This document shows, piece after piece, positions 52 to 15,119 of a stretch of 64,000 nucleotides of DNA (its first letter is position 1; each line of letters begins with the position of its first letter). The translations under genes and the position numbers were made by a program. Below the pieces are notes generated by a model. The model saw only the letters and a program-made list of their open reading frames with translations, ran no database searches and was not told the DNA's origin. Origin of the DNA: Limnohabitans sp. Rim8 (lineage in GTDB: Bacteria; Pseudomonadota; Gammaproteobacteria; Burkholderiales; Burkholderiaceae_C); NCBI RefSeq assembly GCF_945901735.1, contig NZ_CAMDLM010000017.1, positions 1-64,000 on the forward strand, read 5' to 3'.

Positions 52-378
52 ATGAGCAAGAAATCAAACCGTTTTTCACCCGAGGTGCGCGAACGCGCTG
101 TCCGCATGGTGCTCGAACACCGAGGCGAGTACCCCTCCCTTTGGGCCACCATTGAGTCCATTGCCCCAAAGATTGGCTGCGTGCCGCAAACCCTCAACGA
201 CTGGGTTCGACAGCACGAGGTTGACGAAGGCAGGCGCGATGGTGTCAGCTCTGACGAGCGAGCCCGCATCAAAGACCTCGAGCGCGAAGTCAAGGAACTG
301 CGCAAAGCCAACGAAATCCTCAAGCTGGCGAGCGCTTTTTTTGCCCAGGCGGAGCTCGACCGCCGACTGAAGTCTTGA
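52..378 (+). CDS. IS3-family transposase OrfA (HTH protein)
   Basis: A 108-residue OrfA. The N-terminal part (about residues 8-55) is the helix-turn-helix that binds the IS ends, and residues 68-95 ([20 protein letters not shown]) form the leucine-zipper-like coiled coil typical of IS3 OrfA proteins. ATG 52 is the natural start; the upstream stretch CTTTGAGAAGATGGAG has only a weak Shine-Dalgarno. The frame crosses a T7 tract at 336-342, and the -1 frame entered there is open into orfB, so this gene also encodes the N-terminus of the OrfAB fusion transposase. On its own, OrfA usually acts as a regulator of transposition in this family. Confidence 0.92.
336..342 (+). promoter_or_regulatory. 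Programmed -1 frameshift site (T TTT TTT)
   Basis: Seven T residues lie exactly in the X-XXY-YYZ register of orfA (codons GCT TTT TTT). After a -1 slip the reading continues from 342 without a stop into the orfB frame. This fits the known IS3 mode of making OrfAB. I did not establish a downstream stimulatory RNA structure. Confidence 0.7.
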
Positions 379-1289
379 GGGCGTTCGTCGACAAACATCG
401 CGATATCCAAGGGGTCGAGCCGATTTGCAAAGTGCTGCAAATCGCCCCGTCTGGCTACAGGTGCCACGCTGCCCGCAAACGCAAGCCCGAACTGCTTTGC
501 GCCCGGGCCAAACGCGATGAAGCCCTAATGCCGCAGATCCAAGCCGTCTGGCAGGCCAACATGCAGGTCTATGGGGCCGACAAGGTCTGGCACCAGATGA
601 ACCGTGAAGGCACCAAGGTGGCACGTTGTACGGTCGAGCGGCTGATGAAGCGTCTGGGGTTACACGGTGTGCGCAGGGGCAAGGTCGTGCGCACCACGGT
701 GCCGGACAAAGCAGCGCTTTGCCCTCTGGACAGGGTTAATCGCCAGTTCAAGGCCGATCGGCCCAACCAACTGTGGGTGTCGGACTTCACATACGTCAGC
801 ACCTGGCAAGGCTGGCAATACGTGGCCTTTGTGATTGATGTGTTTGCCCGGCGCATCGTGGGCTGGCGTGTCAGCAGTTCGATGCGCACGGACTTTGTGC
901 TCGATGCGCTGGAGCAGGCTTTGTTTGACAGGCAACCCGGACGCTCGGATGCCTTGATTCATCATTCGGACAGGGGGTCGCAATATGTCTCCATTCTCTA
1001 CACCGAACGCCTTGCCCAAGCAGGGATAGAACCCTCGGTGGGCAGCCGTGGTGACAGTTACGACAACGCCTTGGCCGATACGATCAATGGGCTGTACAAG
1101 GCTGAATTGATCCACCGCCGTGCGCCTTGGAAAACCAAGGAGGCACTGGAACTGGCGACCCTGGAATGGGTGGCCTGGTTCAACCATCACCGGCTGCTCA
1201 GCTCGATTGGGTATATTCCACCGGCTGAAGCTGAGGTGAACTACTACCGGCAGCTAGCCGGGCAGAACGAGACCGAGGTCTCAACTTAA
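375..1289 (+). CDS. IS3-family transposase OrfB (DDE integrase), E-to-D variant
   Basis: This is the catalytic part of the transposase, with an rve integrase core. The first Asp is in VSDFTY (residue 137) and the second in HHSDRGSQY (residue 199). The third acidic position, 35 residues on, lies in [15 protein letters not shown] (residue 235) and is Asp (GAT), where relatives have Glu (NALAETINGLYK). A conservative E-to-D change at this site usually cripples DDE enzymes, so catalytic competence is doubtful. The frame begins with a weak TTG inside the end of orfA; the product is most likely made as the OrfAB fusion by -1 frameshifting at 336-342. The length is normal for the family. Confidence 0.9.
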
Positions 1290-2113: not shown

Positions 2114-2139
2114 CATTCTGAACCATTTGGTACAGAATG
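2114..2139. promoter_or_regulatory. Palindromic operator, probable TetR binding site
   Basis: The outer arms CATTCTG (2114-2120) and CAGAATG (2133-2139) are exact reverse complements, and the inner ACCA/TGGT also pair, giving 11 of 13 matched pairs. It sits between the divergent tetR and acyl-CoA dehydrogenase genes, close to the tetR start, the usual place for a TetR autoregulatory operator. Confidence 0.72.
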
Positions 2140-2250
2140 CAAGCCAGCCCCAAACAAGGCTTGCCACGTATCGGCGGGTGTCACTTGCGCAATACCCACC
2201 GCCCGTCGCCTTCGGAACAATGCCCGGGCCAGAACTCGCGGAGAACCACG

Positions 2251-3456
2251 ATGACACTGATGTTGAGCAAGGCGAACCAGGACTTCCGCGACGAGGTGCG
2301 GCGCTTTCTCGACGCCGAGCTCACCGACGAGCTGCGCACAGCGGGGCGACGTGGCACGGGCATCTTCTCCGAGATCGGCCCGGGCATGCAGTGGTTCCGC
2401 ATCCTCGGCCGACGCGGATGGAACGTGCCGCACTGGCCGGTGGAGTGGGGCGGCACCGGCTGGACGCCGGTGCAGCACTACGTGTTCGCCAGTGAACTGG
2501 CGGCGGCCGATGCGCCGACCTTCGCCCCGCAGGGGCCGCGCATGGTCGCACCGGTGGTGCTGGCGTTTGGCACGCCCGAGCAGAGGGCAAACCTTCTGCC
2601 GCGCATCCGCAGCGGCGAGGACTACTGGGCGCAGGGATACTCCGAGCCCGGCTCGGGCTCGGACTTGGCCTCGCTGCAATGCCGTGCCGTGCGCGATGGC
2701 GACCACTACATCATCAATGGCAGCAAGATCTGGACCACGCACGCGCAGTACGCCAACAGGATCTTCTGCCTGGTGCGCACTGACGCGCAGGCCAAGGCGC
2801 AGAGCGGCATCAGCTTCCTGCTGTTCGACATGAAGCTGCCCGGCATCACCATCCGGCCGATCATCAGCATCTCCGGCGACCACGAGCTAAACCAGGTGTT
2901 TTTCGACGACGTGCGCGTGCCGACAAGTGCATTGCTGGGCGAGGAGAACCGCGGCTGGACGGTGGCCAAGTACCTGCTGCAGCACGAGCGTGGCGGCATG
3001 CATTCGCCGATGCTGCGCGCGCGGCTGCGCCGCCTTTACCAAGCGCGCGATGAGGCCTTCGTCGGACGGCCGACGGACGACACCGAGCGGCGCGACATCG
3101 GGCTGAAGCTGGCCGACGCCGCATGCCGCGTCGACGCCATCGAGGCGCTGGACTTGCGCACACTCGCGGCTAGCACGCGTGGCGAGGCGCCGAACCCGAT
3201 TCAACCGTCGATCGGCAAGCTGCTGGGCTCCGAAACGCGGCAGCGGCTCACAGAGCTGAGCCTGCAGATCGCCGGCCTGGCTTCAGCGGCGCGCGTGAAT
3301 CTTGCCGACGCATCCACGGGCGAGTTGTCGCTGCCTGAGGCGGCGGTGTTCGCGATGAGCAGCTACCTCAACGACCGCGCCGCTTCGATCTACGCTGGCA
3401 CCAACGAGATCCAGCGCAATCTCATCGCCGGCCAGCTGCTGGGTCTTCGCGGTTGA
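2251..3456 (+). CDS. Acyl-CoA dehydrogenase, large-subunit type
   Basis: This 401-residue flavoprotein of the acyl-CoA dehydrogenase family introduces an alpha-beta double bond into an acyl-CoA and passes electrons to ETF. ATG 2251 follows a clear GGAGAA at 2240-2245. The FAD/substrate-binding motif YSEPGSGSDLASL and the C-terminal IYAGTNEIQRNLI are present. The residue before GT is Ala rather than the Glu that serves as base in MCAD-type enzymes (YEGT). Such subunits often pair with a second dehydrogenase polypeptide, and here the next gene, 4 bp downstream, is one. The pair resembles PimC/PimD-like pimeloyl-CoA dehydrogenases. The substrate is unknown. Probably controlled by the divergent TetR. 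Confidence 0.9.
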   Translation: MTLMLSKANQDFRDEVRRFLDAELTDELRTAGRRGTGIFSEIGPGMQWFRILGRRGWNVPHWPVEWGGTGWTPVQHYVFASELAAADAPTFAPQGPRMVAPVVLAFGTPEQRANLLPRIRSGEDYWAQGYSEPGSGSDLASLQCRAVRDGDHYIINGSKIWTTHAQYANRIFCLVRTDAQAKAQSGISFLLFDMKLPGITIRPIISISGDHELNQVFFDDVRVPTSALLGEENRGWTVAKYLLQHERGGMHSPMLRARLRRLYQARDEAFVGRPTDDTERRDIGLKLADAACRVDAIEALDLRTLAASTRGEAPNPIQPSIGKLLGSETRQRLTELSLQIAGLASAARVNLADASTGELSLPEAAVFAMSSYLNDRAASIYAGTNEIQRNLIAGQLLGLRG

Positions 3457-3460
3457 CACC

Positions 3461-4588
3461 ATGAACACACCGCACGACTTCGACGAAACACAAACGCTTC
3501 TGCGCGACAGCCTGCAGCGTTGGCTGGAGCAGCGCTTCGCGTTCGAGCAGCGCCTCGCGCTGTTGCAGCGTCCTGACGGGCTTCAGAAGCTTTGGCAAGG
3601 CCTGGCGCAGGATCTGGGCGTGCTCGGTTGCGCGTTCCCCGAGCGCGTTGGCGGCACCGGCGGCAGCGCCGCCGAGCACCTGCTGGTGATGCAGGCGTTG
3701 GGCAACGCGCTCGCTGGCGAGCCTTATCTCGGTGCCGTGGTGATCTGCGGTGGGCTGCTGGCACGCTGCGGCGCCGACGAGCGGCTGGCCGCGCTGATCG
3801 ATGGCCGCATCAGACCGGCCTGGGCCGGCGACGAAGCGGCGGCGCGGCATGACCGGCTGCCGACCCAGACTATGCTTAGGGCCCAGGGGCCAGGCTGGCG
3901 CCTGCGGGGGCGCAAGTCACTGGTGCTGGCGGCGCCAGGCGCGACGCACTTCATTGTGAGTGCGCAGCTCCACGGCGCCGTTGGCCTGGCCTGGGTGGCG
4001 TCAGACACGCCGGGCATCGCGCGCCGCGACTACCGCACAGTGGATGGCGGCTGGGCCAGTGAGCTGGCCTTCGACGTGACCCTGCCGGCCGACGCGCTAC
4101 TGTGCGAACCCGGAATTGCGGCGCAGCAGGCGCTGGAGCGTACGCTGGACGAGGCCACGCTGGCGCTGTGCGCCGAAGCGCTGGGTGTGATGCACCAATT
4201 GCAGCACGCGACCACCAACTACGCGCGTCAGCGCAAGCAGTTCGGGCAGCCGATCGCCGCGTTCCAGGTGCTGCAGCACCGCGTCGCCGACATGCACATC
4301 GCACGCGTGCAGGCCGAAGCGTTGACCTGGACGTCGCTGCTGCAGCTCGACGCCGACGCGGTGCACCGCGAACGCGCGGTTTCATCGGCCAAGGTGATGA
4401 CCTCTCGCGCATGCCGTCTCGTAGGCCAGGGCGCGGTGCAGATCCACGGCGGCATGGGCATGACCGAGGAGTTGGCGGTGGGTCACTACTTCCGCCGCGC
4501 GACGATGATCGAGGCGCAGTTCGGTTCCGTGGACTGGCACCTGCGGCGCGTGGAGCAGCGGGCCGACGGCGATCCGCGAAGTGCATGA
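3461..4588 (+). CDS. Acyl-CoA dehydrogenase, small-subunit type
   Basis: A 375-residue acyl-CoA dehydrogenase-like protein beginning MNTPHDFDETQTLLRDSLQRW, four bases after the preceding stop. The C-terminal flavin-domain motifs YARQRKQFGQPIAAFQVLQHR and VQIHGGMGMTEELAVGHYFRR are well kept. The middle domain is more divergent, as is usual for the small partner of two-subunit dehydrogenases. It probably forms a hetero-oligomer with the product of 2251-3456. Its TGA overlaps the ATG of the SDR remnant that follows, so the original operon was translationally coupled. Confidence 0.88.
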   Translation: MNTPHDFDETQTLLRDSLQRWLEQRFAFEQRLALLQRPDGLQKLWQGLAQDLGVLGCAFPERVGGTGGSAAEHLLVMQALGNALAGEPYLGAVVICGGLLARCGADERLAALIDGRIRPAWAGDEAAARHDRLPTQTMLRAQGPGWRLRGRKSLVLAAPGATHFIVSAQLHGAVGLAWVASDTPGIARRDYRTVDGGWASELAFDVTLPADALLCEPGIAAQQALERTLDEATLALCAEALGVMHQLQHATTNYARQRKQFGQPIAAFQVLQHRVADMHIARVQAEALTWTSLLQLDADAVHRERAVSSAKVMTSRACRLVGQGAVQIHGGMGMTEELAVGHYFRRATMIEAQFGSVDWHLRRVEQRADGDPRSA

Positions 4589-4764
4589 TGAACAAGCCCG
4601 TATGCCCGATCCTTGGAGCCGGCGCCGGCGTCGGTACCGAATTGGCCAACACCTGCTTCCACATTGCGCACCAGCACCGCTCGGCTTTGACTTTCGAGAT
4701 GGATCTGCGCGCGCACTCTGACCTGGCCTGGTGGAACCGTGCCGGCAACCCGGACCTGAAATAG
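4585..4764 (+). pseudogene. Internally deleted short-chain dehydrogenase (SDR) remnant
   Basis: A 59-codon frame begins with an ATGATG that overlaps the previous stop. Its first part (PVCPILGAGAGVGTELA) is the nucleotide-binding start of an SDR. From about residue 21 it jumps to what looks like the SDR C-terminus (HIAHQHRSALTFEMDLRAH), matching the pattern HQHRSAWTxELDLRP of one SDR group. About 150-200 internal codons, including the Tyr-x-x-x-Lys active site, are missing, and the frame is kept. It is therefore a deletion derivative with no expected enzyme activity. The judgement rests on remembered family pattern, not on an alignment. Confidence 0.75.
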
Positions 4765-4773
4765 GAAACACCC

Positions 4774-5382
4774 GTGCTGAAACTGCACCATGCCCCCAAC
4801 AGCCGCGCCGGGCGCATCGTCTGGCTGCTGGAAGAACTGCAATTGCCCTACGAACTCAATCGTATGGAGTTCAGCCCCAAGGCGTTGAAGTCCGACGAGC
4901 ATCGCGCGCGCCACCCGTTGGGCCGGGTGCCGGTATTGGAGGACGGCGAGGTGATGATCTATGAGTCGGGTGCGATCGTCGAGTACCTCATCTCACGCCA
5001 CAGCGACGGCACGCTGAAGCCGGCCGTGAATTCACCGCTGTTCCCGAAGTATTTGCAGTGGTTCCACTACTGCGAGGGCATGGTGATGCCGCCGATCAAT
5101 ACCATCGTCGTCCACACCTTGTTGCTGCCTCCAGAGCGGCGAAACGAAGAGACTCTCGGGCAAGCCAAGCGTCTGTTGGTCAAGGCATTGGAGCCATTGA
5201 ACGAGAACATGGCCGGCAAGGATTACATGATCGGTGACCTGTCCGGCGTGGACTTCATGCTGGGCCACGCTTGCTACATGTCACGCCGGGTGGGCTGCAT
5301 GCCCGAAGACATGACCCAACTGCATGCCTACGTCAAGCGCCTGGAGGCGCGGCCGGCGTTCGAGAAGGGTATCAAGACGTGA
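4774..5382 (+). CDS. Glutathione S-transferase family protein
   Basis: A 202-residue cytosolic GST. The N-terminal thioredoxin-like domain (residues 1-80) shows the GST pattern: HHAPNSRAGRIVWLLEEL with a candidate glutathione-activating Ser, the cis-Pro in GRVPVLEDG, and YESGAIVEYL binding the glutamyl part. The all-helical C-terminal domain follows. The start is GTG 4774 after AGGAAA. The gene sits nine bases after the SDR remnant in the TetR-linked operon; GSTs in such clusters often take part in isomerisation, thiol conjugation or removal of reactive intermediates. The specific substrate is unknown. Confidence 0.9.
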   Translation: MLKLHHAPNSRAGRIVWLLEELQLPYELNRMEFSPKALKSDEHRARHPLGRVPVLEDGEVMIYESGAIVEYLISRHSDGTLKPAVNSPLFPKYLQWFHYCEGMVMPPINTIVVHTLLLPPERRNEETLGQAKRLLVKALEPLNENMAGKDYMIGDLSGVDFMLGHACYMSRRVGCMPEDMTQLHAYVKRLEARPAFEKGIKT

Positions 5383-5448
5383 CCAGTGTACAGCATGATG
5401 TCGCATCGGCGCGTGAGCGTAGGCCTTGCCCAGTGAGTCCTCCGGAGG

Positions 5449-5655
5449 ATGATTGTGACCAGAACGATTGAACCAATCTTTGACTTTGTCAGCCCCAATT
5501 GCTACTTGGCCTGGCAGCCTCTGCGTGCGGTGACCGCACGGCAGGGCGCGCATCGAGATCACGCTGCTGGAAAACAGCTGATCGGTTCAGCATGTCTGCT
5601 GGCAGTCCTGAGGTCCCCTTACGAACCCCAATGCAGTTGCGAAGGAACCTTATGA
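5449..5655 (+). pseudogene. Degraded DsbA/HCCA-isomerase-like gene, N-terminal remnant
   Basis: A frame starting at ATG 5449 or GTG 5455, behind a strong GGAGG, encodes TIEPIFDFVSPNCYLAWQPL. This is the start of the 2-hydroxychromene-2-carboxylate isomerase/DsbA-like fold (usual pattern FDFxSPYSYLA). After about 35 residues the likeness ends, and the rest is unlike the family, which is normally near 200 residues. The frame stops at a TGA that overlaps the ATG of the next gene. I read it as a truncated, rearranged remnant. With a GST next door, the original pair would have been a kappa-GST/HCCA-type isomerase and a GST in an aromatic or thiol-dependent route. Confidence 0.6.
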
Positions 5656-6455
5656 GCCAAGACCTGTTGGAAACGATCGAAGGCGGCATCGCCACGCTGA
5701 CCATGAACCGCCCAGAGACGCGCAACGCGCTGTCGCTGGCCATGTTTGACGGCCTGTCCGAGGCCCTGCCTCGACTGGCCAACGACCCTGCGGTGCGCTT
5801 GGTGGTGCTCACCGGCGCCGGCGCGGCCTTCTGTTCTGGCGGCGACGTCAAGGGCTTCGCCCAGCGCGCTGGCGGCGAGGTATCGGCTACCAGCTTCGAC
5901 CACAAGGTCACAGATCTACGCACCCGAATGGAAGTCAGCCGGTGGCTGCACGAGATGCCCAAGCCGACGTTGGCGGTGATCCCTGGCCCTGCGGCGGGTG
6001 CAGGCCTGTCCTTGGCCCTGGCCTGCGACCTTCGCATCGCCTCCGACGATGCCAAGCTGACCACCGCGTTTTCCAAGATTGCCCTGTCCGGTGATTTCGG
6101 TGGCAGCTACTTCCTCAGCCACCTCGTCGGCGCTGCCAAGGCACGTGAGATGTACTTCACCGGCAACGTGATCACCGGAGCTGAAGCCCAGTGCATCGGC
6201 CTGGTCCACCGTGCGGTGCCTTCTGCCCAGCTGCCAGAAGCGGCCCGATCATGGGCGGCCGAACTGGCCGCTTTGCCCACCATTGCCGTGGGCTACATGA
6301 AGCGCAATCTGAACACCAGCTTGCGTGGAGGCTCGCTGTCCGATGTGCTGGACTGCGAAGCGATACACATGATCCGCACGTTCGAGACGTCCGATCACAA
6401 GTCAGCCGCGCAGGCCTTCGTCGGAAAGCGGGCGCCGAGCTTCCAGGGTCGATGA
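5652..6455 (+). CDS. Crotonase-family enoyl-CoA hydratase/isomerase
   Basis: A 267-residue crotonase-fold protein with start ATG 5652 after GAAGGA. The oxyanion-hole segments GAGAAFCSGGDVKGF (about 55-69) and PGPAAGAGLSLALACDLRIA (about 111-130) are present. The two glutamates of classical hydratases are absent: the GGGCEL position reads GAGLSL and the PEI position reads SKI (142-143). Asp148 in SGDFGGSYFL aligns by eye with the catalytic Asp of PaaG-like isomerases. It is therefore more likely an isomerase or other crotonase activity than a simple enoyl-CoA hydratase. It lies in the TetR-linked catabolic operon. Confidence 0.87.
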   Translation: MSQDLLETIEGGIATLTMNRPETRNALSLAMFDGLSEALPRLANDPAVRLVVLTGAGAAFCSGGDVKGFAQRAGGEVSATSFDHKVTDLRTRMEVSRWLHEMPKPTLAVIPGPAAGAGLSLALACDLRIASDDAKLTTAFSKIALSGDFGGSYFLSHLVGAAKAREMYFTGNVITGAEAQCIGLVHRAVPSAQLPEAARSWAAELAALPTIAVGYMKRNLNTSLRGGSLSDVLDCEAIHMIRTFETSDHKSAAQAFVGKRAPSFQGR

Positions 6456-6510
6456 GCGCTGGTTGGCCCGACCCTAACTTTCCATCTTGTTCAACCCTAG
6501 TCCTCTGTCC

Positions 6511-7512
6511 ATGACCGCACCTGCCCGCTACCTACCCCCGATCCTCGAGAACCTGAGCTTCCCCGTGATTGGTTCCCCGTTGTTCATCATCAGCAACCCC
6601 AAGCTGGTCATCGCGCAGTGCAAGGCAGGGGTAGTGGGCGCGATGCCCGCGCTCAATGCCCGGCCCGCTTCGCAGCTTGACGAATGGCTGGCCGAGATCA
6701 CCGAAGCGCTTGCCGCGCATGACAAGGCGCACCCGGAGTCGCCGGCTGCGCCGTTTGCCATCAACCAGATCGTGCACAAGAGCAATGATCGGCTTGAGCA
6801 CGACATGCAGGTCTGCGCCAAGTACAAGGTGCCGATCGTCATCACCAGCCTCGGCGCGCGTGATGACGTGAACCGTGGCGTGCATGCCTGGGGTGGTGTG
6901 GTGCTGCACGACGTCATCAACAATACCTTCGCGCGCAAGGCTATCGAGAAGGGTGCCGATGGTCTGATCCCGGTGGCTGCGGGCGCCGGAGGACATGCCG
7001 GTGTGAAGAGCCCATTCGCAATCGTGGCCGAGATCCGAGAATGGTTTGGGGGCCCGGTGGCGCTGTCGGGCGCCATCTCGTCTGGCGGCGCCATCCTGGC
7101 CGCGCAGGCCATGGGTGCCGATCTGGCCTACATCGGATCGGCCTTCATCGCTACGCCGGAAGCCCGCGCCGTGGAGGGCTACAAGCAGATGATCGTCGAG
7201 AGCAACTCCGATGACATCGTGTACACCAACTTCTTCAGAGGGGTCTATGCCAACTACCTCAAAGGCAGCATCCGCAATGCGGGCATGGATCCCGACAACC
7301 TGCCGCGGATCGATACGAACAAGATGGACTTCGCAAGCGGCGAAGGCGGGGGGCCGGTCAAGGCTTGGAAGGACATCTGGGGCTGCGGCCAGGGCATCGG
7401 CGCCATTCGCGAGGTGCTGCCAGCGGGCGAACTGGTGGCGCGCCTCAAGCGGGAGTATGGCGAGGCCAGAGCGCGCATCTGCGCCCGATCAATTGCAAGG
7501 GCCCATGATTGA
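6511..7512 (+). CDS. Nitronate monooxygenase family protein (NMO/2-nitropropane dioxygenase-like)
   Basis: A 333-residue FMN-dependent TIM-barrel protein. PVIGSPLFIISNPKLVIAQ starts the barrel, GADGLIPVAAGAGGHAG (FMN phosphate region with the conserved His) lies near residues 150-166, and the AISSGGAILAAQAMGAD/YIGSAFIATPEA segment follows. Such proteins oxidise propionate-3-nitronate-type toxins or act as enoyl reductases in fatty-acid-like pathways; many copies inside acyl-CoA degradation clusters have unknown roles. ATG 6511 is preferred over an in-frame TTG eight codons upstream. It is the last intact gene of the TetR-linked cluster. Confidence 0.88.
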   Translation: MTAPARYLPPILENLSFPVIGSPLFIISNPKLVIAQCKAGVVGAMPALNARPASQLDEWLAEITEALAAHDKAHPESPAAPFAINQIVHKSNDRLEHDMQVCAKYKVPIVITSLGARDDVNRGVHAWGGVVLHDVINNTFARKAIEKGADGLIPVAAGAGGHAGVKSPFAIVAEIREWFGGPVALSGAISSGGAILAAQAMGADLAYIGSAFIATPEARAVEGYKQMIVESNSDDIVYTNFFRGVYANYLKGSIRNAGMDPDNLPRIDTNKMDFASGEGGGPVKAWKDIWGCGQGIGAIREVLPAGELVARLKREYGEARARICARSIARAHD

Positions 7513-7814: not shown

Positions 7815-8723
7815 TCATCCGGTCACGTAGAGCCTTCGAGAGTGCGTCCGCAGGAGCTCGACACACCGATCAACAATCGGCGACACCTCGTCGCTGCGAC
7901 GATAGAGCGCAATCCTGCGTTGGAAGCGCGCCTGTTCCGCGCTGAAGGTAGTCAGCCCTCGTGCTTGCGGCGTCCGAGTCGCTGCCTCGCCGAACAACGT
8001 CAGGAAGTCCGTCCCGGGCAACATGGGCCAGATCTGCGACACAGACTCGGAGACCTCCAACGCGACGACCGGTGGTGGTGCGCCCGCCTCGGCCAGTCGC
8101 TCCTCAAGTGCGCGGCGAACCATCGCCCCGGGCCCAGGCAAGATCCATCGGTAGTCGCTGAGCGCGGCCAGTGAGAACTTCCGACGCTGCAACGGGTGGC
8201 CACTGCGTGCCACGATGACGATGTCGTCGTCGAACAGCGATTCGGACAAGAATCCTGCTCCGACTTGCGACGTAGAAGCGCAGACCACCAAATCGTAGTC
8301 GCCTTTCGAGAGGCCACGCAGAAGCGCGTCCCCGAGTCCCAGATTCAGGCGAATCTGCGCGAGCGGGCGCCCCTGGAGCAGTTCCATCGCGACCGGCGCG
8401 ACCAGCTGTTGAATGTACTGGGTCGACGCCCCAATCCGCAGGACGCTCAAGGAGCCGAGCTGGATGGCCGCGGCCTCACGCACCGCTTCGGCCAGTCCCT
8501 GGTGGGCCAGTTGTGCCCTGCCTTGAAAGCGCCTGGCAACTTCAGTCAGCCGCATCCCGCGGGGGCCCCGCTCGAAGAGCTCGAATCCGACCTCGCTCTC
8601 GAGGCGCTTGATCGCCTTGGTGATCGTCGGCTGCGGCACATCCAGGTCCATGGACGCGCGTCGAACACCGCCGCTCGCGGCGACGGCGAAGAAGAGGTCG
8701 AGATCGTCCAGTCTGATGCCCAT
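7815..8723 (-). CDS. LysR-family transcriptional regulator
   Basis: A 302-residue LTTR. The N-terminal winged HTH occupies residues 4-62 (LDDLDLFFAVAASGGVRRAS, then PQPTITKAIKRLESEVGFEL). The C-terminal periplasmic-binding-like effector domain starts near residue 92. It is divergently transcribed from the 8880-15119 cluster with a 156-bp shared intergenic region holding two inverted repeats, the classical LTTR arrangement, so it most likely activates that cluster in response to its substrate or an intermediate. The inducer cannot be predicted from sequence. Confidence 0.93.
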   Translation of the reverse strand: MGIRLDDLDLFFAVAASGGVRRASMDLDVPQPTITKAIKRLESEVGFELFERGPRGMRLTEVARRFQGRAQLAHQGLAEAVREAAAIQLGSLSVLRIGASTQYIQQLVAPVAMELLQGRPLAQIRLNLGLGDALLRGLSKGDYDLVVCASTSQVGAGFLSESLFDDDIVIVARSGHPLQRRKFSLAALSDYRWILPGPGAMVRRALEERLAEAGAPPPVVALEVSESVSQIWPMLPGTDFLTLFGEAATRTPQARGLTTFSAEQARFQRRIALYRRSDEVSPIVDRCVELLRTHSRRLYVTG

Positions 8724-8879: not shown

Positions 8880-10172
8880 ATGGTGAGGCTCTCGGATCTG
8901 TCGAGGTATGACCGCGACCATGTGCTGATGAAGCAGCTCCCGCCGCTCGAGCCTTTCTCCTGGGTCGAGCGCCCCAAACCGGTCAGCGAGATGCGGTTCG
9001 CCGTGATCACGACCGCCGGACTTCACGTCCGGGGCGAAGAAAACTTCGAACTGTCAGATGCTTCCTACCGTGTCATTGCCAGCGACCAGGACACGGCCAA
9101 GCTCATCATGTCGCACGTGTCGACGAATTTCGATCGGTCCGGATTTCGTGATGACGTGAATGTCGTCTTCCCGCTTGACCGGTTTCGTGAACTCGCGGCG
9201 GACGGTGTGATCGGCGGTCTGGCTTCGGCGCACTATAGTTTCATGGGCGGCGGGCTGATGCCGGACGCGTACGAGACATCGGTGCGCTCGCTCGCTTCCC
9301 TTCTCAAACGCGACGGTGTGGACGCGGTGTTCATCACACCGGTTTGCCCAAACTGCACGCGTGCCACCTGCGCCATCGCGCACTATCTTGAGTCCGAAGG
9401 CATCCTGACCACGGGCATTGCACTGGTCCGCGAAAATGCCACAGCGCTTCGGCCACCACGCCTCCTGTGGGTCACATTCCCATTTGGGTACCCGCTCGGC
9501 AAGCCCAATGATCCGGCCTTCCAACGCCGGGTGATTGAGGCGGGCCTCGACCTTCTCAATCGATCGTCCGGCCCCGTCCTGGAAGACTGCGCAGATGAGT
9601 TGCCACCGATCGATCTTGAGTCGGTCGACGCCTGCCCGGTCAATTTCTCCCAACCTGGGCGGAATGCGTCCACCTGGCGTGCGCGGTTGGCCAACGAGCG
9701 GATGCTGCTCCAGCCCTGGTATGAGATGAGCCTTCGTCGTCGCGGACGGACCATGGTCGGACTGTCCCGGGACGGAATTGGCGACATCCTCGACATGGTC
9801 GGAAGCTGGCTCGACGACCGCAAACAACCCTTTCCCAAGACCAAGGTTTTCAAGTTCGGGATCGAAGATGCGAAAGCCTGGTACAGCGAAGCGCTCAGCG
9901 CCCAGCCGGGCGAATATGGTCCAGGTCAGGTCGAGCGCGTTCTGTACCACGAGACGGTGCTCGGCGCTGCGTTGAAGGAGTACTTCAACCATTTCGCCAC
10001 CGACCCCAAGACGATCATTACGGCGCGCCTGATTGCCCCGCGATGGGCGATGGAAGCCTCGACTGGAGCGGGCGCCATCGACAAGCACGGAAACCTGGTG
10101 GAACAGCCGGCAGCCAAGGCCATGCGCGAAGCTGAACAGCACGACGCCGGCAAAGGAGACTCACATGATTGA
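8880..10172 (+). CDS. GrdB-related (glycine/sarcosine/betaine reductase B-like) protein, Cys form
   Basis: A 430-residue protein of the family annotated as glycine/sarcosine/betaine reductase selenoprotein B-like. Telltale segments are SHVSTNFDRSGFRDDVNVVF (about 78-97), GLASAHYSFMG (113-123) and ITPVCPNCTRATCAIAHYL (152-170). Where true GrdB carries selenocysteine before the downstream cysteines, this protein has Cys156, with Cys159 and Cys164 following, and there is no in-frame UGA. The start is ATG 8880 after GGAGG at 8865-8869. Its TGA overlaps the next gene by 8 bp. In aerobic proteobacteria the activity of these homologues is not established; a reductive C-N or C-X bond cleavage or a cofactor role is conceivable. 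Family call fairly sure, function unknown. Confidence 0.8.
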   Translation: MVRLSDLSRYDRDHVLMKQLPPLEPFSWVERPKPVSEMRFAVITTAGLHVRGEENFELSDASYRVIASDQDTAKLIMSHVSTNFDRSGFRDDVNVVFPLDRFRELAADGVIGGLASAHYSFMGGGLMPDAYETSVRSLASLLKRDGVDAVFITPVCPNCTRATCAIAHYLESEGILTTGIALVRENATALRPPRLLWVTFPFGYPLGKPNDPAFQRRVIEAGLDLLNRSSGPVLEDCADELPPIDLESVDACPVNFSQPGRNASTWRARLANERMLLQPWYEMSLRRRGRTMVGLSRDGIGDILDMVGSWLDDRKQPFPKTKVFKFGIEDAKAWYSEALSAQPGEYGPGQVERVLYHETVLGAALKEYFNHFATDPKTIITARLIAPRWAMEASTGAGAIDKHGNLVEQPAAKAMREAEQHDAGKGDSHD

Positions 10173-11007
10173 AATCAAACCGATTCGCGAGGGCTTTGGC
10201 GCGGATGTTTCCAGTGTCGACCTGGCCAACATCACGGACCAGGAGTTCGAGGTCATCTACAAGGCCTGGCTCGACTATGGCGTTTTGCGCTTCAGGGGCC
10301 AGACCCTCGACAAGGCCGGTCTTCAGGCCTTCAGCCAGCGATTCGGTCCGCTTGAGCAAATCCCGATCGGCCGGATGAGCGTAGAACGCCGCGCCAAAAT
10401 CGACAACCTCTACGTGACAGCGATCTCCAATATCGTCGTGAACGGCAAGCCGATCGGCGGGCTGGGCAGTGGCGAGGCCGAATGGCACTCGGACATGACT
10501 TATCTCGACAACCCGCCGCCTGCAAGCGTGTTGCTTGGAGTCACGATCCCGCCGCATGGTGGGGACACCTTTTTTGTCGACCAGCGCGCCGCCTATGAGC
10601 GCTTGCCTGACGCGCTGAAGGCGCGGATCGAAGGGCTGACCCTCAAGCACGACGCCGCCCATACCAGCGTCGGCGAGTTGCGGACTGGCTTCGAACCTTT
10701 CGACGACCCGCGAGACGCGCCGGGAGCAGTCCACCCGATCGTTCGTGAGCACAGCGAGACCGGCGCGAAGTGCCTCTATCTGGGCCGTCGGGACTGGGCC
10801 TACATCCCGGGCTTGTCGCTCGAGGACAGCGAAGCACTGCTCGACGAACTCTGGAGCCATGCCATCCCCGAAGACGTCATCGTTGAGCAGAACTGGACGC
10901 CAGGCGACGTGATCATCTGGGACAACCGGCGCTGCCTGCACCGGCGCTCGGAGATCGATCCGACGACACAGAGACTGCTACTGCGGTGCCAAGTATTGGC
11001 GCGCTAG
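10165..11007 (+). CDS. TauD/TfdA-family Fe(II)/2-oxoglutarate dioxygenase
   Basis: A 280-residue dioxygenase beginning MIEIKPIREGFGADVSSVDL, typical of TauD/TfdA enzymes. The facial triad is complete: H108 and D110 in EWHSDMTYL and distal H259 in RRCLHRRS, with R270 placed to bind 2-oxoglutarate. Such enzymes hydroxylate a carbon next to a sulfonate, ether, amine or halogen and so release the heteroatom group. GGAG precedes ATG 10165, and the gene overlaps the GrdB-like gene by 8 bp, so the two are likely translated together and act on the same substrate or on successive intermediates. The substrate is unknown. Confidence 0.92.
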   Translation: MIEIKPIREGFGADVSSVDLANITDQEFEVIYKAWLDYGVLRFRGQTLDKAGLQAFSQRFGPLEQIPIGRMSVERRAKIDNLYVTAISNIVVNGKPIGGLGSGEAEWHSDMTYLDNPPPASVLLGVTIPPHGGDTFFVDQRAAYERLPDALKARIEGLTLKHDAAHTSVGELRTGFEPFDDPRDAPGAVHPIVREHSETGAKCLYLGRRDWAYIPGLSLEDSEALLDELWSHAIPEDVIVEQNWTPGDVIIWDNRRCLHRRSEIDPTTQRLLLRCQVLAR

Positions 11008-11077
11008 ACGGCCTCCGCCCGCTATGGCGGGTGATGCAGGCGACAGGGCCGAATCGACTTTATACAAGGAGACTGTC

Positions 11078-12052
11078 ATGACCTTCACCCGCCGCCAGAC
11101 TCTTGGCTTGGCCGCTGCCGCGCTGCTCACCGGCCCTGTCTCGGCCCAGACCGGCGACTGGCCGAGCCGTCCCATCACGCTGATCATTCCCTTCCTTCCA
11201 GGCACCTCACCGGACATCACGATGCGCCCCTTGGTTGAGGCGATGGGGGCGACCCTGAAGCAGCCCATCGTCGTCGAGAACCGGGCCGGGGCCGCTGGGA
11301 GCCTGGGAGCCCAACTCGCCGCACGCGCCGCACCTGATGGCTACACCTGGATGTATGCCGCCAATGTGCATGCGGCGACAATGCGCATGCGCAAGAATCC
11401 AGGCTTCGACATCCTGAAGGATTTCACCATGGTCGGACGCACTGGCACGGCCGAGATGCTGCTGGTGGCGCCGGTCAATTCTGGCCTGAAGACTTTGAAG
11501 GACTTGGTCGACCTGGCGCGCAAGAACCCGGGCAAGCTGAACTTCGCATCGGGCGGCCCGGGTTCGCCAGCGCATCTGGCGGCCGAATTGATGCTCAGCA
11601 CCGCCGGAGTGACGGCCACCCACATCCCTTTCAAGGGTGCATCGGAGTCGCTCACGGCCGTGATAGGCAAGCAGGTCGACTTCGCGATGATCTTCACCTC
11701 GGTAGCACTGCCGCAAGTGAAGGCCGGCAAGGTCGCCGTGCTGGGCATCACGTCGGGCACACGCAATCCGATAGTCTCCGATGTGCTGACGCTGGTCGAG
11801 CAGGGTTTGGCCGGCGTCGAGGTGACCGGCTTCGGCGGTCTGGCCGTGCCAGCGGGCACGCCACCTGCCATCGTCAATCGCATCTGGGAGGTGATGCGCG
11901 AAGCCTTGGCCCGTCCGGACATTCGCGCCAAGATGGAAGCTCAAGGTAACCCGCCCAGACCGGCCGGCCCCGAGGAGTTCGCGGCGGCAATGCGCGCCGA
12001 GATCGTGCTGACCGAAAGGATGATGAAGGTGGCGCGAATTGAAGCAGAGTAG
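11078..12052 (+). CDS. Bug-family tripartite tricarboxylate transporter receptor (TctC-like)
   Basis: A 324-residue periplasmic solute-binding protein. The signal peptide TFTRRQTLGLAAAALLTGPVSAQ has a twin-arginine-like start and ends near residue 24. The Bug-family landmarks DWPSRPITLIIPFLPGTSPD, VVENRAGAAGSLGAQLAARA and HIPFKGASESLTAVIGKQVD are all present. Start ATG 11078 is preceded by AAGGAG. The TctA/TctB membrane partners are not in the window, as is common for Bug proteins, which may share permeases or act as sensors. It probably binds the carboxylate that the cluster degrades. Confidence 0.94.
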   Translation: MTFTRRQTLGLAAAALLTGPVSAQTGDWPSRPITLIIPFLPGTSPDITMRPLVEAMGATLKQPIVVENRAGAAGSLGAQLAARAAPDGYTWMYAANVHAATMRMRKNPGFDILKDFTMVGRTGTAEMLLVAPVNSGLKTLKDLVDLARKNPGKLNFASGGPGSPAHLAAELMLSTAGVTATHIPFKGASESLTAVIGKQVDFAMIFTSVALPQVKAGKVAVLGITSGTRNPIVSDVLTLVEQGLAGVEVTGFGGLAVPAGTPPAIVNRIWEVMREALARPDIRAKMEAQGNPPRPAGPEEFAAAMRAEIVLTERMMKVARIEAE

Positions 12053-12230
12053 CCATGGACGCTGCCGACGCCCGAACAACGGGCAATGCCAGCCCTGCGG
12101 CCGGACCTGACCGGGGGCCCATGCGTATGTCCGACGGCCGACATCGACCACGCCATGCTGCGCTCTTGCGTCGAAATGTCTTTGGTCAAGGACCATGTTG
12201 CCTGAACACTTCACTCCGAGAGGAACACCG

Positions 12231-13790
12231 ATGACTCAAGCCAGCGCCGAACGCAGCGGAGCCGTGGCCCTTGTCCAGACCTTCGTCGAAGCAGGTGTCA
12301 AGGTTTGCTTTGCCAATCCGGGCACCTCCGAGATGCACTTTGTCGCTGCGCTCGACACCAACCCCGAGATGCGGTGCGTGTTAGGCCTCTTTGAAGGCGT
12401 TGTCACGGGGGCAGCCGACGGCTATGGACGGATGACCGGCACGCCGGCCGCGACGCTGCTGCATCTGGGCCCTGGTCTGGCCAATGGTTTGGCCAATTTG
12501 CACAACGCCAAGAAGGCGTTCACACCGCTGGTCAACGTGGTCGGTGACCATGCCAGCTATCACCGCAAGTTCGATGCGCCCCTAACCTCCAACATCGAAG
12601 GCATAGCTGCGCCGGTTTCGGGCTGGGTACGAGCATCCAGGTCTGCCGATGAGGTCGGCGCAGATGGATCGGCTGCGATCCAGGCGGCCTTGTCACCCCC
12701 GGGCCAAGTGGCCACACTGATCCTGCCTGCCGACACGGCTTGGAATACGACCCGCCGCCTCTCCTCGCCTGTGCAGCGACCCATCCCAGCCGCGTTTGAT
12801 CCCGCGCATGTGGACGCCACGGCGAAGGTGCTGCGTGGCGGCGAACCGGCTGTCATGCTTATCAACGGTCGGCTGGATGCGGGCCGGCTCGTTCTAGCAC
12901 AGCGCATTGCCAAGGCCAGCGGTGCTCGACTCATCACCGACACCTTCGTATCGCGGCAACAGCGAGGGGCCGGCCGGGTCAGTCCGATTCGACTGCCCTA
13001 TTTCGGGGAGCAGGCGGCGGAAGTATTGGCGGGTACGCGGCATCTGATCTTGGTGGGCACCCAGGCGCCCGTGACCTTCTTTGCCTACCCTGGGAAACCC
13101 TATTGGCTTACGCCCGATAGATGCGCGCTGCACACTTTGGTCGAACGCGAGGCAGACGTCGACGGCGCGCTGGATGCACTCGGCCAGGCCTTGTCCATCC
13201 AGGCAACCAAGGCTGACCTTGCGCCGCTCGAACGTTCGCCGTTGGCCAGCGGTGGTCTCAACCCGAAAACCATCGCCGCTGCGGTTTCGCACTACTTGCC
13301 TGACAACGCCATCGTGGTGGACGAAGGTGGCACGTCAGGCGCAGCCACAAGCGCCGCGACCCGCACGGCGCCGCCCCATGATTGGCTGCAGTTGACTGGC
13401 GGCTCGATCGGGTATGCCATGCCCACGGCCACTGGTGCGGCCATCGCCTGCCCCGACCGAAGGGTGATCTGCCTCCAGGGCGACGGTGGAGGCATGTACA
13501 CCTTGCAGGCATTGTGGACACAGGCGCGCGAGCAACTCGACATCACCACCATCATCTTCGCCAACCGAAAGTACAGCATTCTTCAGGTCGAGTTGGCGCG
13601 TGTGGGCGCCAGGCCGGGTCCGAAGGCCACAAGCATGCTGGAGCTCACCAACCCTGAACTTTCATGGGTGCAGATGGCGCAAGGCATGGGGGTTGCCGCA
13701 TGGCGCGCGACGAGTGCCGACGAGTTCAACGCCGCCTTGGCGGCCGCATTGCGAACGCGTGGACCGTCTCTGATCGAGGCGATGATCTGA
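12231..13790 (+). CDS. Thiamine-diphosphate-dependent enzyme (acetolactate synthase large-subunit-like)
   Basis: A 519-residue ThDP enzyme of the acetolactate synthase/benzoylformate decarboxylase superfamily. Glu55 in GLFEGVVTGAADGYGRMTG is the cofactor-activating glutamate. The C-terminal ThDP/Mg motif begins with GDGGG at about 417 and ends at FANRKYS. It lacks an obvious FAD-type long central domain and has no small regulatory subunit beside it, so a true biosynthetic acetolactate synthase is unlikely; decarboxylation or carboligation of a 2-oxo acid is more probable. ATG 12231 follows GAGAGGAAC. It is flanked by the Bug and CoA-transferase genes in the LysR-linked cluster. Confidence 0.88.
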   Translation: MTQASAERSGAVALVQTFVEAGVKVCFANPGTSEMHFVAALDTNPEMRCVLGLFEGVVTGAADGYGRMTGTPAATLLHLGPGLANGLANLHNAKKAFTPLVNVVGDHASYHRKFDAPLTSNIEGIAAPVSGWVRASRSADEVGADGSAAIQAALSPPGQVATLILPADTAWNTTRRLSSPVQRPIPAAFDPAHVDATAKVLRGGEPAVMLINGRLDAGRLVLAQRIAKASGARLITDTFVSRQQRGAGRVSPIRLPYFGEQAAEVLAGTRHLILVGTQAPVTFFAYPGKPYWLTPDRCALHTLVEREADVDGALDALGQALSIQATKADLAPLERSPLASGGLNPKTIAAAVSHYLPDNAIVVDEGGTSGAATSAATRTAPPHDWLQLTGGSIGYAMPTATGAAIACPDRRVICLQGDGGGMYTLQALWTQAREQLDITTIIFANRKYSILQVELARVGARPGPKATSMLELTNPELSWVQMAQGMGVAAWRATSADEFNAALAAALRTRGPSLIEAMI

Positions 13791-13841
13791 GCTGGGCAGT
13801 GCTACTGATCGTGTCAATCAACTTCATTGAATGCCCGGACC

Positions 13842-15119
13842 ATGACGCAGCAATCCGATCCACATGCAGGCGCCGCCGGTGCCAGCCAAGAAGTCCACGG
13901 CCCCCTGCACGGCATCCGTGTGCTTGACCTGTCGAGGGTGTTTGCTGCCCCATGGTGCATGCAGATCCTGGGCGACATGGGGGCGGACATCATCAAGATC
14001 GAGCGGCCCGGCGTGGGCGACGAGTCGCGCCAATGGGGGCCGCCCTTCCTGAAGGACAAGGAGGGCAATGCGACACGCGAATCAGCCTATTTCATGTCGA
14101 CCAATCGCAACAAGCGGTCGGTGGCGGTGGATCTGTCCAACCCGCAGGGTCAGGCGTTGATACGCAAGATGGCTGAATCTGCAGACATCTGCATCGAGAA
14201 CTTCAAGGTGGGTGACCTGGCGCGCTACGGCCTCGACTATGCGTCGCTGGCGAAGATCAACCCACGCCTTATCTACTGCTCGGTGACAGGTTTTGGCCAA
14301 GACGGCCCTTGGGCTTCACGCCCCGGCTATGACTATCTGTTCCAGGGTTTGGGCGGGATCATGAGTGTCACCGGCGAGCGCGACGACAAGCCGGGCGGGG
14401 GCCCTCAGCGCGTGGGCCTGCCGTTGGTGGACCTGTTCACCGGCATGTATTCGACCGTCGCCATTTTGGGGGCCCTGCATCACCGCGATCAAACCAGTGA
14501 GGGACAACACATCGACATGTCGCTGTTCGCGACGGTCATGGCCGTCAGTTCCGGTCACTTGTCGAACTATCTGGTCGGCGGCAAGCTCCCTGGCCGTACT
14601 GGCAATGTGTCGCCGAACATTGGTCCGTACGGCGTGTACCCTTGCTCGGACGGCCTGCTCATCATAGCCAGCGCCAACCAGTCGCAGTTTGTGGCGCTCT
14701 GCAAGGCACTGGGGCATTCTGAATGGGCGAGCGACCCGCGTTTTGCCGACAACGGCGGACGAATGGCGCATCAAGAGGTGCTGTACGAACTCTTCGCGGA
14801 AGTGTTGAAGACGCGCACCCGTTCGGACTGGGAAGAGCTGTTCATGGAAGTGGGCGTGCCCGCTGGCCCCATCAATAACTACCAGCAGGCGCTTGACCAT
14901 CCGATGGCCAAGCACCAGAAGACCCGATTGAGCCTGAAGCATCCGTTGGGGGTCGAGGCACCCGGCATTGCGAGCCCGCTCAAGTTTTCAAAAACACCCG
15001 TGACCTATCGGCGCCCGCCACCGATGCTGGGCCAACACACCAGCGAAGTGCTCAATGAGATGGGCCTGGACCAGGCTGAGATCGATCAACTGGTCAAGAG
15101 CGGCGCCATCAGGCTATGA
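13842..15119 (+). CDS. CaiB/BaiF-family (class III) CoA-transferase
   Basis: About 425 residues of a class III CoA-transferase. The start of the fold (PLHGIRVLDLSRVFAAPWCM, then LGDMGADIIKIERPGVGD) and the NFKVGDLARYGLDYASLAKINP segment are typical. The catalytic Asp is expected in SRPGYDYLFQGLGG. ATG 13842 is preferred over an in-frame TTG at 13827. These enzymes move CoA between carboxylic acids by an aspartyl-CoA mechanism, so this gene probably activates the acid consumed or formed by the preceding ThDP enzyme or dioxygenase. It ends the LysR-linked cluster. Confidence 0.92.
   Translation: MTQQSDPHAGAAGASQEVHGPLHGIRVLDLSRVFAAPWCMQILGDMGADIIKIERPGVGDESRQWGPPFLKDKEGNATRESAYFMSTNRNKRSVAVDLSNPQGQALIRKMAESADICIENFKVGDLARYGLDYASLAKINPRLIYCSVTGFGQDGPWASRPGYDYLFQGLGGIMSVTGERDDKPGGGPQRVGLPLVDLFTGMYSTVAILGALHHRDQTSEGQHIDMSLFATVMAVSSGHLSNYLVGGKLPGRTGNVSPNIGPYGVYPCSDGLLIIASANQSQFVALCKALGHSEWASDPRFADNGGRMAHQEVLYELFAEVLKTRTRSDWEELFMEVGVPAGPINNYQQALDHPMAKHQKTRLSLKHPLGVEAPGIASPLKFSKTPVTYRRPPPMLGQHTSEVLNEMGLDQAEIDQLVKSGAIRL

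Follow-up and report, generated by a model that had tools for sequence, protein, structure and literature searches.

A stretch of 64,000 nucleotides from Limnohabitans sp. Rim8 (contig NZ_CAMDLM010000017.1, positions 1 to 64,000; hereafter the window) carries a gene cluster that begins with a PrdB/GrdB-like protein of a long form. This protein has a Cys residue at the site where its relatives in Burkholderiales have an in-frame TGA codon. The cluster probably degrades an organic acid, and in it lies the Cys twin of what seems to be a selenocysteine (Sec) protein in related bacteria. The PrdB-like gene is followed, all on the forward strand, by genes for a TauD/TfdA family dioxygenase, a Bug-type substrate-binding protein, a thiamine diphosphate (ThDP) enzyme and a class III coenzyme A (CoA)-transferase, and a LysR gene precedes it on the reverse strand. 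Tentatively, and with somewhat less than an even chance, the cluster can be read as an operon that was acquired horizontally and serves the catabolism of a small organic acid, in which two modules have been joined and a PrdB-like redox protein acts in its Cys version.

Probable selenocysteine, or cysteine, at one site of the long forms

The PrdB-like protein was searched in 300 genomes of its order, of which 30 match at E 1e-10; the long form is present in 18 of these, including the window genome (G000), and occupies 20 loci apart from that in the window. When 399 genomes were drawn again, mostly overlapping with the first set, 20 had a match at E 1e-40, and three loci were added (L119-L121); the combined set of other long forms in the order is 23 loci in 19 genomes. 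In an alignment of 22 long forms, all 20 relatives of the order have an in-frame TGA at the site of window Cys156, and so do the three later loci (23/23 in total). The second TGA counted in G002 and G242 ends the frame and is taken as a stop. TGA and Cys codons are exchanged between the long forms at this one site. L051, which is cut by a contig end, is outside the full-length tree and alignment A4, and L119-L121 are in neither; L053 is labelled as a Cys form solely for the absence of TGA, and no CxxC is seen in it.

Behind the TGA, the 20 loci share a consensus hairpin resembling the selenocysteine insertion sequence, with an alifold value of -10.2; synonymously shuffled sequences average -0.4 (0/200 as low), although this control is generous because row-by-row shuffling destroys the likeness among related genes. 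The consensus hairpin sequence is lacking in the two Cys forms. Tests for the decoding machinery cover 17 of the 19 Sec-form genomes (G925 and G951 lie outside). tRNA-Sec is found at 70-80 bits in all 17 and SelB is above its cut-off in 16; the one that falls short, G144, is fragmented and has a C-terminal piece of SelB together with a tRNA-Sec gene on one contig. Judged from the TGA, the hairpin, SelB and tRNA-Sec, the relatives appear to insert Sec at this site.

SelB is not above its cut-off in the window genome or in G670, and no tRNA-Sec scores above the cut-off of 47 in G000, G234, G850 and G670. By these two tests, the window genome, which is 96% complete, does not decode Sec. The second Cys form (L002), 80% identical to the window protein, is found in an alphaproteobacterial metagenome-assembled genome (MAG) where SelB and tRNA-Sec are not above cut-off either, absences that are weaker evidence because the completeness of this MAG is not established. 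The best tree sets all 20 Sec long forms, weakly (73/80), on one side of a branch, and Cys could therefore be ancestral in the long clade.

Two further observations concern Sec in this family. At G002:C5:70396-75519, selB and a tRNA-Sec gene are located at most 2 kb from a long PrdB-like gene. Among the short PrdB-like relatives, 8 of 18 (L054, L056, L058, L062, L063, L065, L068, and L069) have an in-frame TGA, within the motif UPVCHQT.

The initial annotation of this DNA had called the protein a Cys-form relative of GrdB. The family and the Cys site hold: PF07355 scores 36.2 bits, above the gathering cut-off of 22, and the redox site is a CxxC (C156-P-N-C159) whose two Cys columns are invariant in 21 aligned sequences when Sec is read as C. 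By profile scores, the protein is nevertheless nearer to PrdB than to GrdB. Its best NCBIfam model is that of PrdB (TIGR04483; E 5.5e-38, 130.8 bits, short of the cut-off of 300), with homology spanning residues 26-227, and the match to the GrdB profile is confined to the final third of that profile and falls in the N-terminal half of the window protein. TIGR01917, TIGR01918, GrdF, and GrdH give 41.2, 47.3, 60.3, and 55.6 bits against cut-offs of 602.2, 65.45, 800, and 775, none of which is reached; the best TIGR01918 match of the other 20 long forms has E 6.2e-19, so that, judged from E-values only, this one may pass the low cut-off of that model. The approximately 200 additional C-terminal residues are partly conserved and give no Pfam family in the 21 long forms beyond five weak single matches (E 0.059 to 0.35). 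Because no NCBIfam cut-off is reached by the window protein and the C-terminal part has no Pfam family, the protein is best described as related to PrdB and extended at its C-terminus, and not as a proven PrdB or GrdB. It is 38-46% identical to the TGA-containing relatives and 53% identical to a copy that a contig end truncates. Sequence and profile searches matched no solved structure, and no repeat was detected between the halves of the protein.

PF09338, which we take to be the family of pyruvoyl-bearing partner subunits of Stickland reductases, is not found in the window genome and occurs in one of 19 genomes. Since neither the window genome nor 17 of the 18 others give a match, a classical glycine or proline reductase is unlikely. 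A Stickland-type reductase with a pyruvoyl subunit would agree with the homology to PrdB and GrdB, but the protein lies far under the cut-offs for PrdB, GrdB, GrdF, and GrdH and under that of TIGR01918 as well, and the pyruvoyl family does not turn up in a nearly complete genome. Such an enzyme is therefore very improbable in the window cluster, in agreement with the initial annotation. The sole PF09338 match among the 19 genomes is G293:C148:6277-7416.

The dioxygenase and the modules of the cluster

The initial annotation described the gene set, its order, the overlap with TauD and the divergent LysR gene, and open frames, Pfam and NCBIfam confirm all of them (Table 1). Every named reading frame is open and none is missing, and the first 8 bases of TauD overlap the end of the PrdB-like gene (ATGATTGA). 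A promoter scan found none, and terminator-like sites are fewer than in shuffled sequence.

Table 1. Features of the cluster and its flanks, in window coordinates
Feature	Position	Strand	Remarks
Transposase pair, helix-turn-helix (HTH_Tnp_1) and integrase core	52..1289	+	PF01527, PF00665
Two acyl-CoA dehydrogenases, glutathione S-transferase, enoyl-CoA hydratase, nitronate-monooxygenase-like protein	2137..7512	+	
LysR-type regulator	7815..8723	-	PF03466 E 8e-25, PF00126 E 2e-17; divergent from the cluster
Long-form PrdB/GrdB-like protein of 430 aa with Cys	8880..10172	+	PF07355, TIGR04483
Codon of Cys156 (TGC)	9345..9347	+	Aligned with the TGA of relatives; second Cys is Cys159
TauD/TfdA family Fe(II)/2-oxoglutarate dioxygenase	10165..11007	+	PF02668 E 3.1e-61
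Bug-type (TctC) periplasmic substrate-binding protein	11078..12052	+	Start taken at the ATG behind AAGGAG; PF03401 E 1e-57, scored on the longer frame from 11024
ThDP enzyme, PRK07586 family	12231..13790	+	NF005760 752.6 bits; alternative upstream ATG 12195
Class III CoA-transferase	13842..15119	+	PF02515 E 2.8e-129

In TauD, the iron site HxD...H is complete (H108, D110, and H259), and two Arg residues, R270 and R274, are kept behind the distal His. Its score with the taurine dioxygenase model NF007104 is 142.1 bits, below the curated cut-off of 313, and the nearest solved structure is that of a phenoxypropionate dioxygenase. For the ThDP enzyme, a start at 12231, where GAGAGG precedes the ATG, is more likely than the upstream one. 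Counted from there, its Glu is residue 55, as the initial annotation had it (67 in the longer frame); the GDG motif and the N are present, and the nearest solved relatives are benzoylformate decarboxylases (best E 1.4e-33 in PDB). The CoA-transferase has Asp163, which we take to be the catalytic Asp of class III enzymes, in GYD (PGYDY, numbered from 13845). It scores 443.2 bits with SucGlutTfsCaiB, under the cut-off of 750, and its PDB matches are 4ed9 and 9br6. The catalytic roles of the other listed motif residues in TauD and the ThDP enzyme are assumed here in the same way. In the flank, the run of genes at 2137..7512 ends just ahead of the LysR gene and may or may not belong to the same pathway; the transposase pair has what is presumably an IS3-type arrangement.

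The pairing of the PrdB-like gene with TauD recurs but is not general. TauD of the window kind is near 2 of 24 other long-form loci (L002 and L033), and a remote TauD (27% identity) is found at a third, L045. The closest TauD among those compared is that of L002 (60%), located 5 kb from the nearest PrdB-like relative, and the window and L002 are sisters at 100/99 in both the PrdB-like tree (40 rows) and the TauD tree (15 rows). At L002, a GntR/FCD regulator gene lies about 45 bases ahead of the PrdB-like gene, and its product is 33% identical (E 8e-31) to the TauD-adjacent regulator of L033. In G233, which harbors L033, a long form with TGA follows TauD at a distance of about 60 bases and in the same orientation. 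G046 belongs to the same genus, and its syntenic locus has TauD and the GntR regulator without a long form. In the tree, the long form of G233 clusters with a pair from family f13 (98/97) and apart from its own genus; the joining in G233 therefore looks independent. The initial annotation had suggested that the two proteins may act together. Their recurrence at L002 and L033 is in line with this, but the small number of such loci, with no excess over controls, does not extend it to the family.

The rest of the cluster is also found in parts elsewhere. Genes for a ThDP enzyme (71% identity) and a CoA-transferase (70%) occur together in G210 (L074), on the same strand and about 2 kb apart, in a 15.5 kb stretch with short-chain dehydrogenase/reductase (SDR), RraA-like and acyl-CoA dehydrogenase genes and with no TauD or PrdB-like gene. 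This is the one other place where the module is found, since the nine other ThDP loci examined have no CoA-transferase. Among ten relatives of TauD, Bug is present at six when the window protein is used as the query. Several have enzymes of the mandelate racemase/muconate lactonizing enzyme (MR/MLE) family (by Pfam at L084, L085, L091, and L093, and by clustering at others), and several have GntR or LysR regulators. In Comamonadaceae bacterium OTU4NAUVB1, for example, TauD and Bug are adjacent, and LysR, MR/MLE and another Bug lie at least 3.6 kb upstream. The window cluster is made of two separable modules, regulator-TauD-Bug and ThDP enzyme-CoA-transferase, plus the PrdB-like gene. A second TauD of the window genome (L093, G000:C35:26633-27457; 44% identity) has its own run with LysR, Bug (TctC), MR/MLE and SDR genes.

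This modularity bears on the pathway put forward in the initial annotation, in which the PrdB-like protein and TauD would free a heteroatom group (of a sulfonate, betaine or ether) and the resulting 2-oxo acid would pass to the ThDP enzyme and the CoA-transferase. The gene order and the families are in keeping with it, as is the phenoxypropionate dioxygenase as nearest solved relative of TauD, and the retained R270 and R274 make an anionic substrate plausible. The ThDP enzyme and CoA-transferase, however, occur without TauD and the PrdB-like protein, and the substrate assignment is conjectural, which leaves this version quite unlikely.

A proposed catabolic role and its competitors

In the catabolic operon that is preferred here, the Bug protein would bind a small organic acid and TauD would hydroxylate an anionic substrate. 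The PrdB-like protein, with Cys156 as the nucleophile and Cys159 as the resolving thiol, might then act on the substrate or on the product of TauD, by reduction or by reductive cleavage; it would work without a pyruvoyl subunit and be re-reduced by cellular thiols. The ThDP enzyme would decarboxylate the resulting 2-oxo acid, and the CoA-transferase would activate the remaining acid. The gene content, the TGA/Cys exchange, the finding of neither Sec decoding nor a pyruvoyl partner, the separate modules and the repeated joining with TauD were computed directly; Sec insertion in the relatives, co-transcription, the substrate class, the order of the steps and the chemistry are predicted.

Several points weigh against this proposal. 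It is built on gene content and evolutionary pattern, and the substrate and the enzymatic activity are predictions. Besides the generous control noted above, only 15 of the 20 hairpins taken singly are in the best 5% of 500 shuffles (L038, L042, L046, L050, and L052 are not), and each of the two Cys forms still gives a hairpin of another kind (-8.6 and -10.6). The TGA form of L121 (G925:C5) reads UPNYTC, with Tyr at the second Cys site, and an AlphaFold model from two sequences has a mean pLDDT of 36 and is unusable. The neighborhoods are not uniform either. TauD is found at 2 of 23 Sec loci (one remote) versus 2 of 20 control loci, CoA-transferase at 3 of 23 versus 3 of 20, Bug at 15 of 23 versus 9 of 20 (p 0.23), in no case a significant excess, and the ThDP enzyme was found at none of the 23. 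A constant operon partner was sought by clustering of neighbors and by Pfam counts over 92 neighbors of 20 Sec loci, and none was found; Bug alone is frequent.

These comparisons have a defined range. The 20 control loci were placed by hand in 12 of the 19 Sec-form genomes, and 17 of the 24 long-form loci reach 5 kb on both sides, the other 7 being short on one or both, so that some neighbors may have escaped. The density of Bug genes is about doubled at long-form loci (10.9 vs. 5.2 per 100 kb). At short-form loci, class III CoA-transferase is present at 6 of 18 versus 3 of 20 controls, which come mostly from other genomes (p 0.26).

The varied surroundings of the Sec forms would also suit an accessory redox or repair protein that reduces oxidized thiols, peroxides or the dioxygenase itself rather than a carbon substrate, and hence fits beside diverse catabolic genes. 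TauD has been joined twice, apparently independently, and the UxxC motif is like that of many redox selenoproteins, as treated in part of a recent inventory (PMC13188914). Such a function is nevertheless doubtful, since some 200 partly conserved extra residues exceed the need of a simple redox carrier and the homology is to substrate reductases.

The distribution of the gene is narrow. In its own family, the window genome alone among 220 has a PrdB-like match at E 1e-20; in a phylum search, it is again the only one, among 398 genomes at E 1e-30; and viral contigs gave no relative. A contig scan gave one locus, with patterns close enough to the query that named relatives may have been missed. 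Judged from this distribution, the cluster looks horizontally acquired. The cluster genes resemble the other window genes in GC content at third codon positions, which gives no sign of transfer, and transposase genes are located 7.6 kb upstream. Rarity in the family, the nearby transposases and the lack of TauD enrichment over controls are also what would be expected if the PrdB-like gene were a passenger that landed by chance between the regulator and the TauD-Bug module, with no role in the pathway. This is unlikely in view of the 8-base overlap with TauD, the sister relation of both window proteins to the L002 pair and the second joining in G233.

The catabolic operon can be placed in a wider and more speculative frame. 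The long PrdB-like selenoproteins of Burkholderiales may be a new class of stand-alone selenol/thiol reductases that act in oxygen-using catabolism without a pyruvoyl subunit. The window would then show the class in a form that is free of selenium and tied to a 2-oxoglutarate dioxygenase, with one substrate undergoing both an oxidative and a reductive step; we regard this extension as no better than a doubtful prospect. A long form without a pyruvoyl partner is encoded with TGA in one set of genomes and with Cys, next to a dioxygenase, in another. Because the latter is Cys-encoded beside the dioxygenase, its function can be tested without selenium in an ordinary expression host.

Relation to known systems

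Among the best matches in the open-licence literature, compared by title and the start of the abstract, there is neither a long PrdB-like selenoprotein of this order nor a pairing with TauD. A 2026 inventory covers the GrdB and D-proline reductase families, and "Burkholderi" is absent from its main text (PMC13188914). In the Global Ocean Sampling (GOS) set, the PrdB type with UxxC ranks with the most abundant selenoproteins, with 235 Sec and 110 Cys forms, according to part of that study (PMC2398784). The conflict that the initial annotation saw between GrdB, a protein of anaerobic reductases, and the oxygen-requiring TauD is consequently weaker than was claimed. The oceanic proteins were assigned to D-proline reduction in a section of the Sargasso Sea work (PMC1088965). 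Their comparison with the window protein covers the family name and the UxxC motif given in these two sources, in which they are alike.

Among the characterized families, PrdB (TIGR04483) is homologous over residues 26-227 and has the UxxC/CxxC site in the same position; the window protein differs in its long C-terminal extension and in a genome where the pyruvoyl partner is not found. With GrdB, GrdF, and GrdH (PF07355, TIGR01917, and TIGR01918), it has in common the PF07355 score and the U/C-x-x-C motif, but the profile match is partial and no NCBIfam cut-off is reached. For the arrangement of genes, a close counterpart is found on plasmid 3 of Variovorax sp. PBL-E5, which has a run of LysR, TauD, an enolase-like gene and Bug. 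LysR, TauD and Bug are common to the window, whereas the window has the PrdB-like gene in place of the one for an enolase C-terminal domain-like (MR/MLE) protein.

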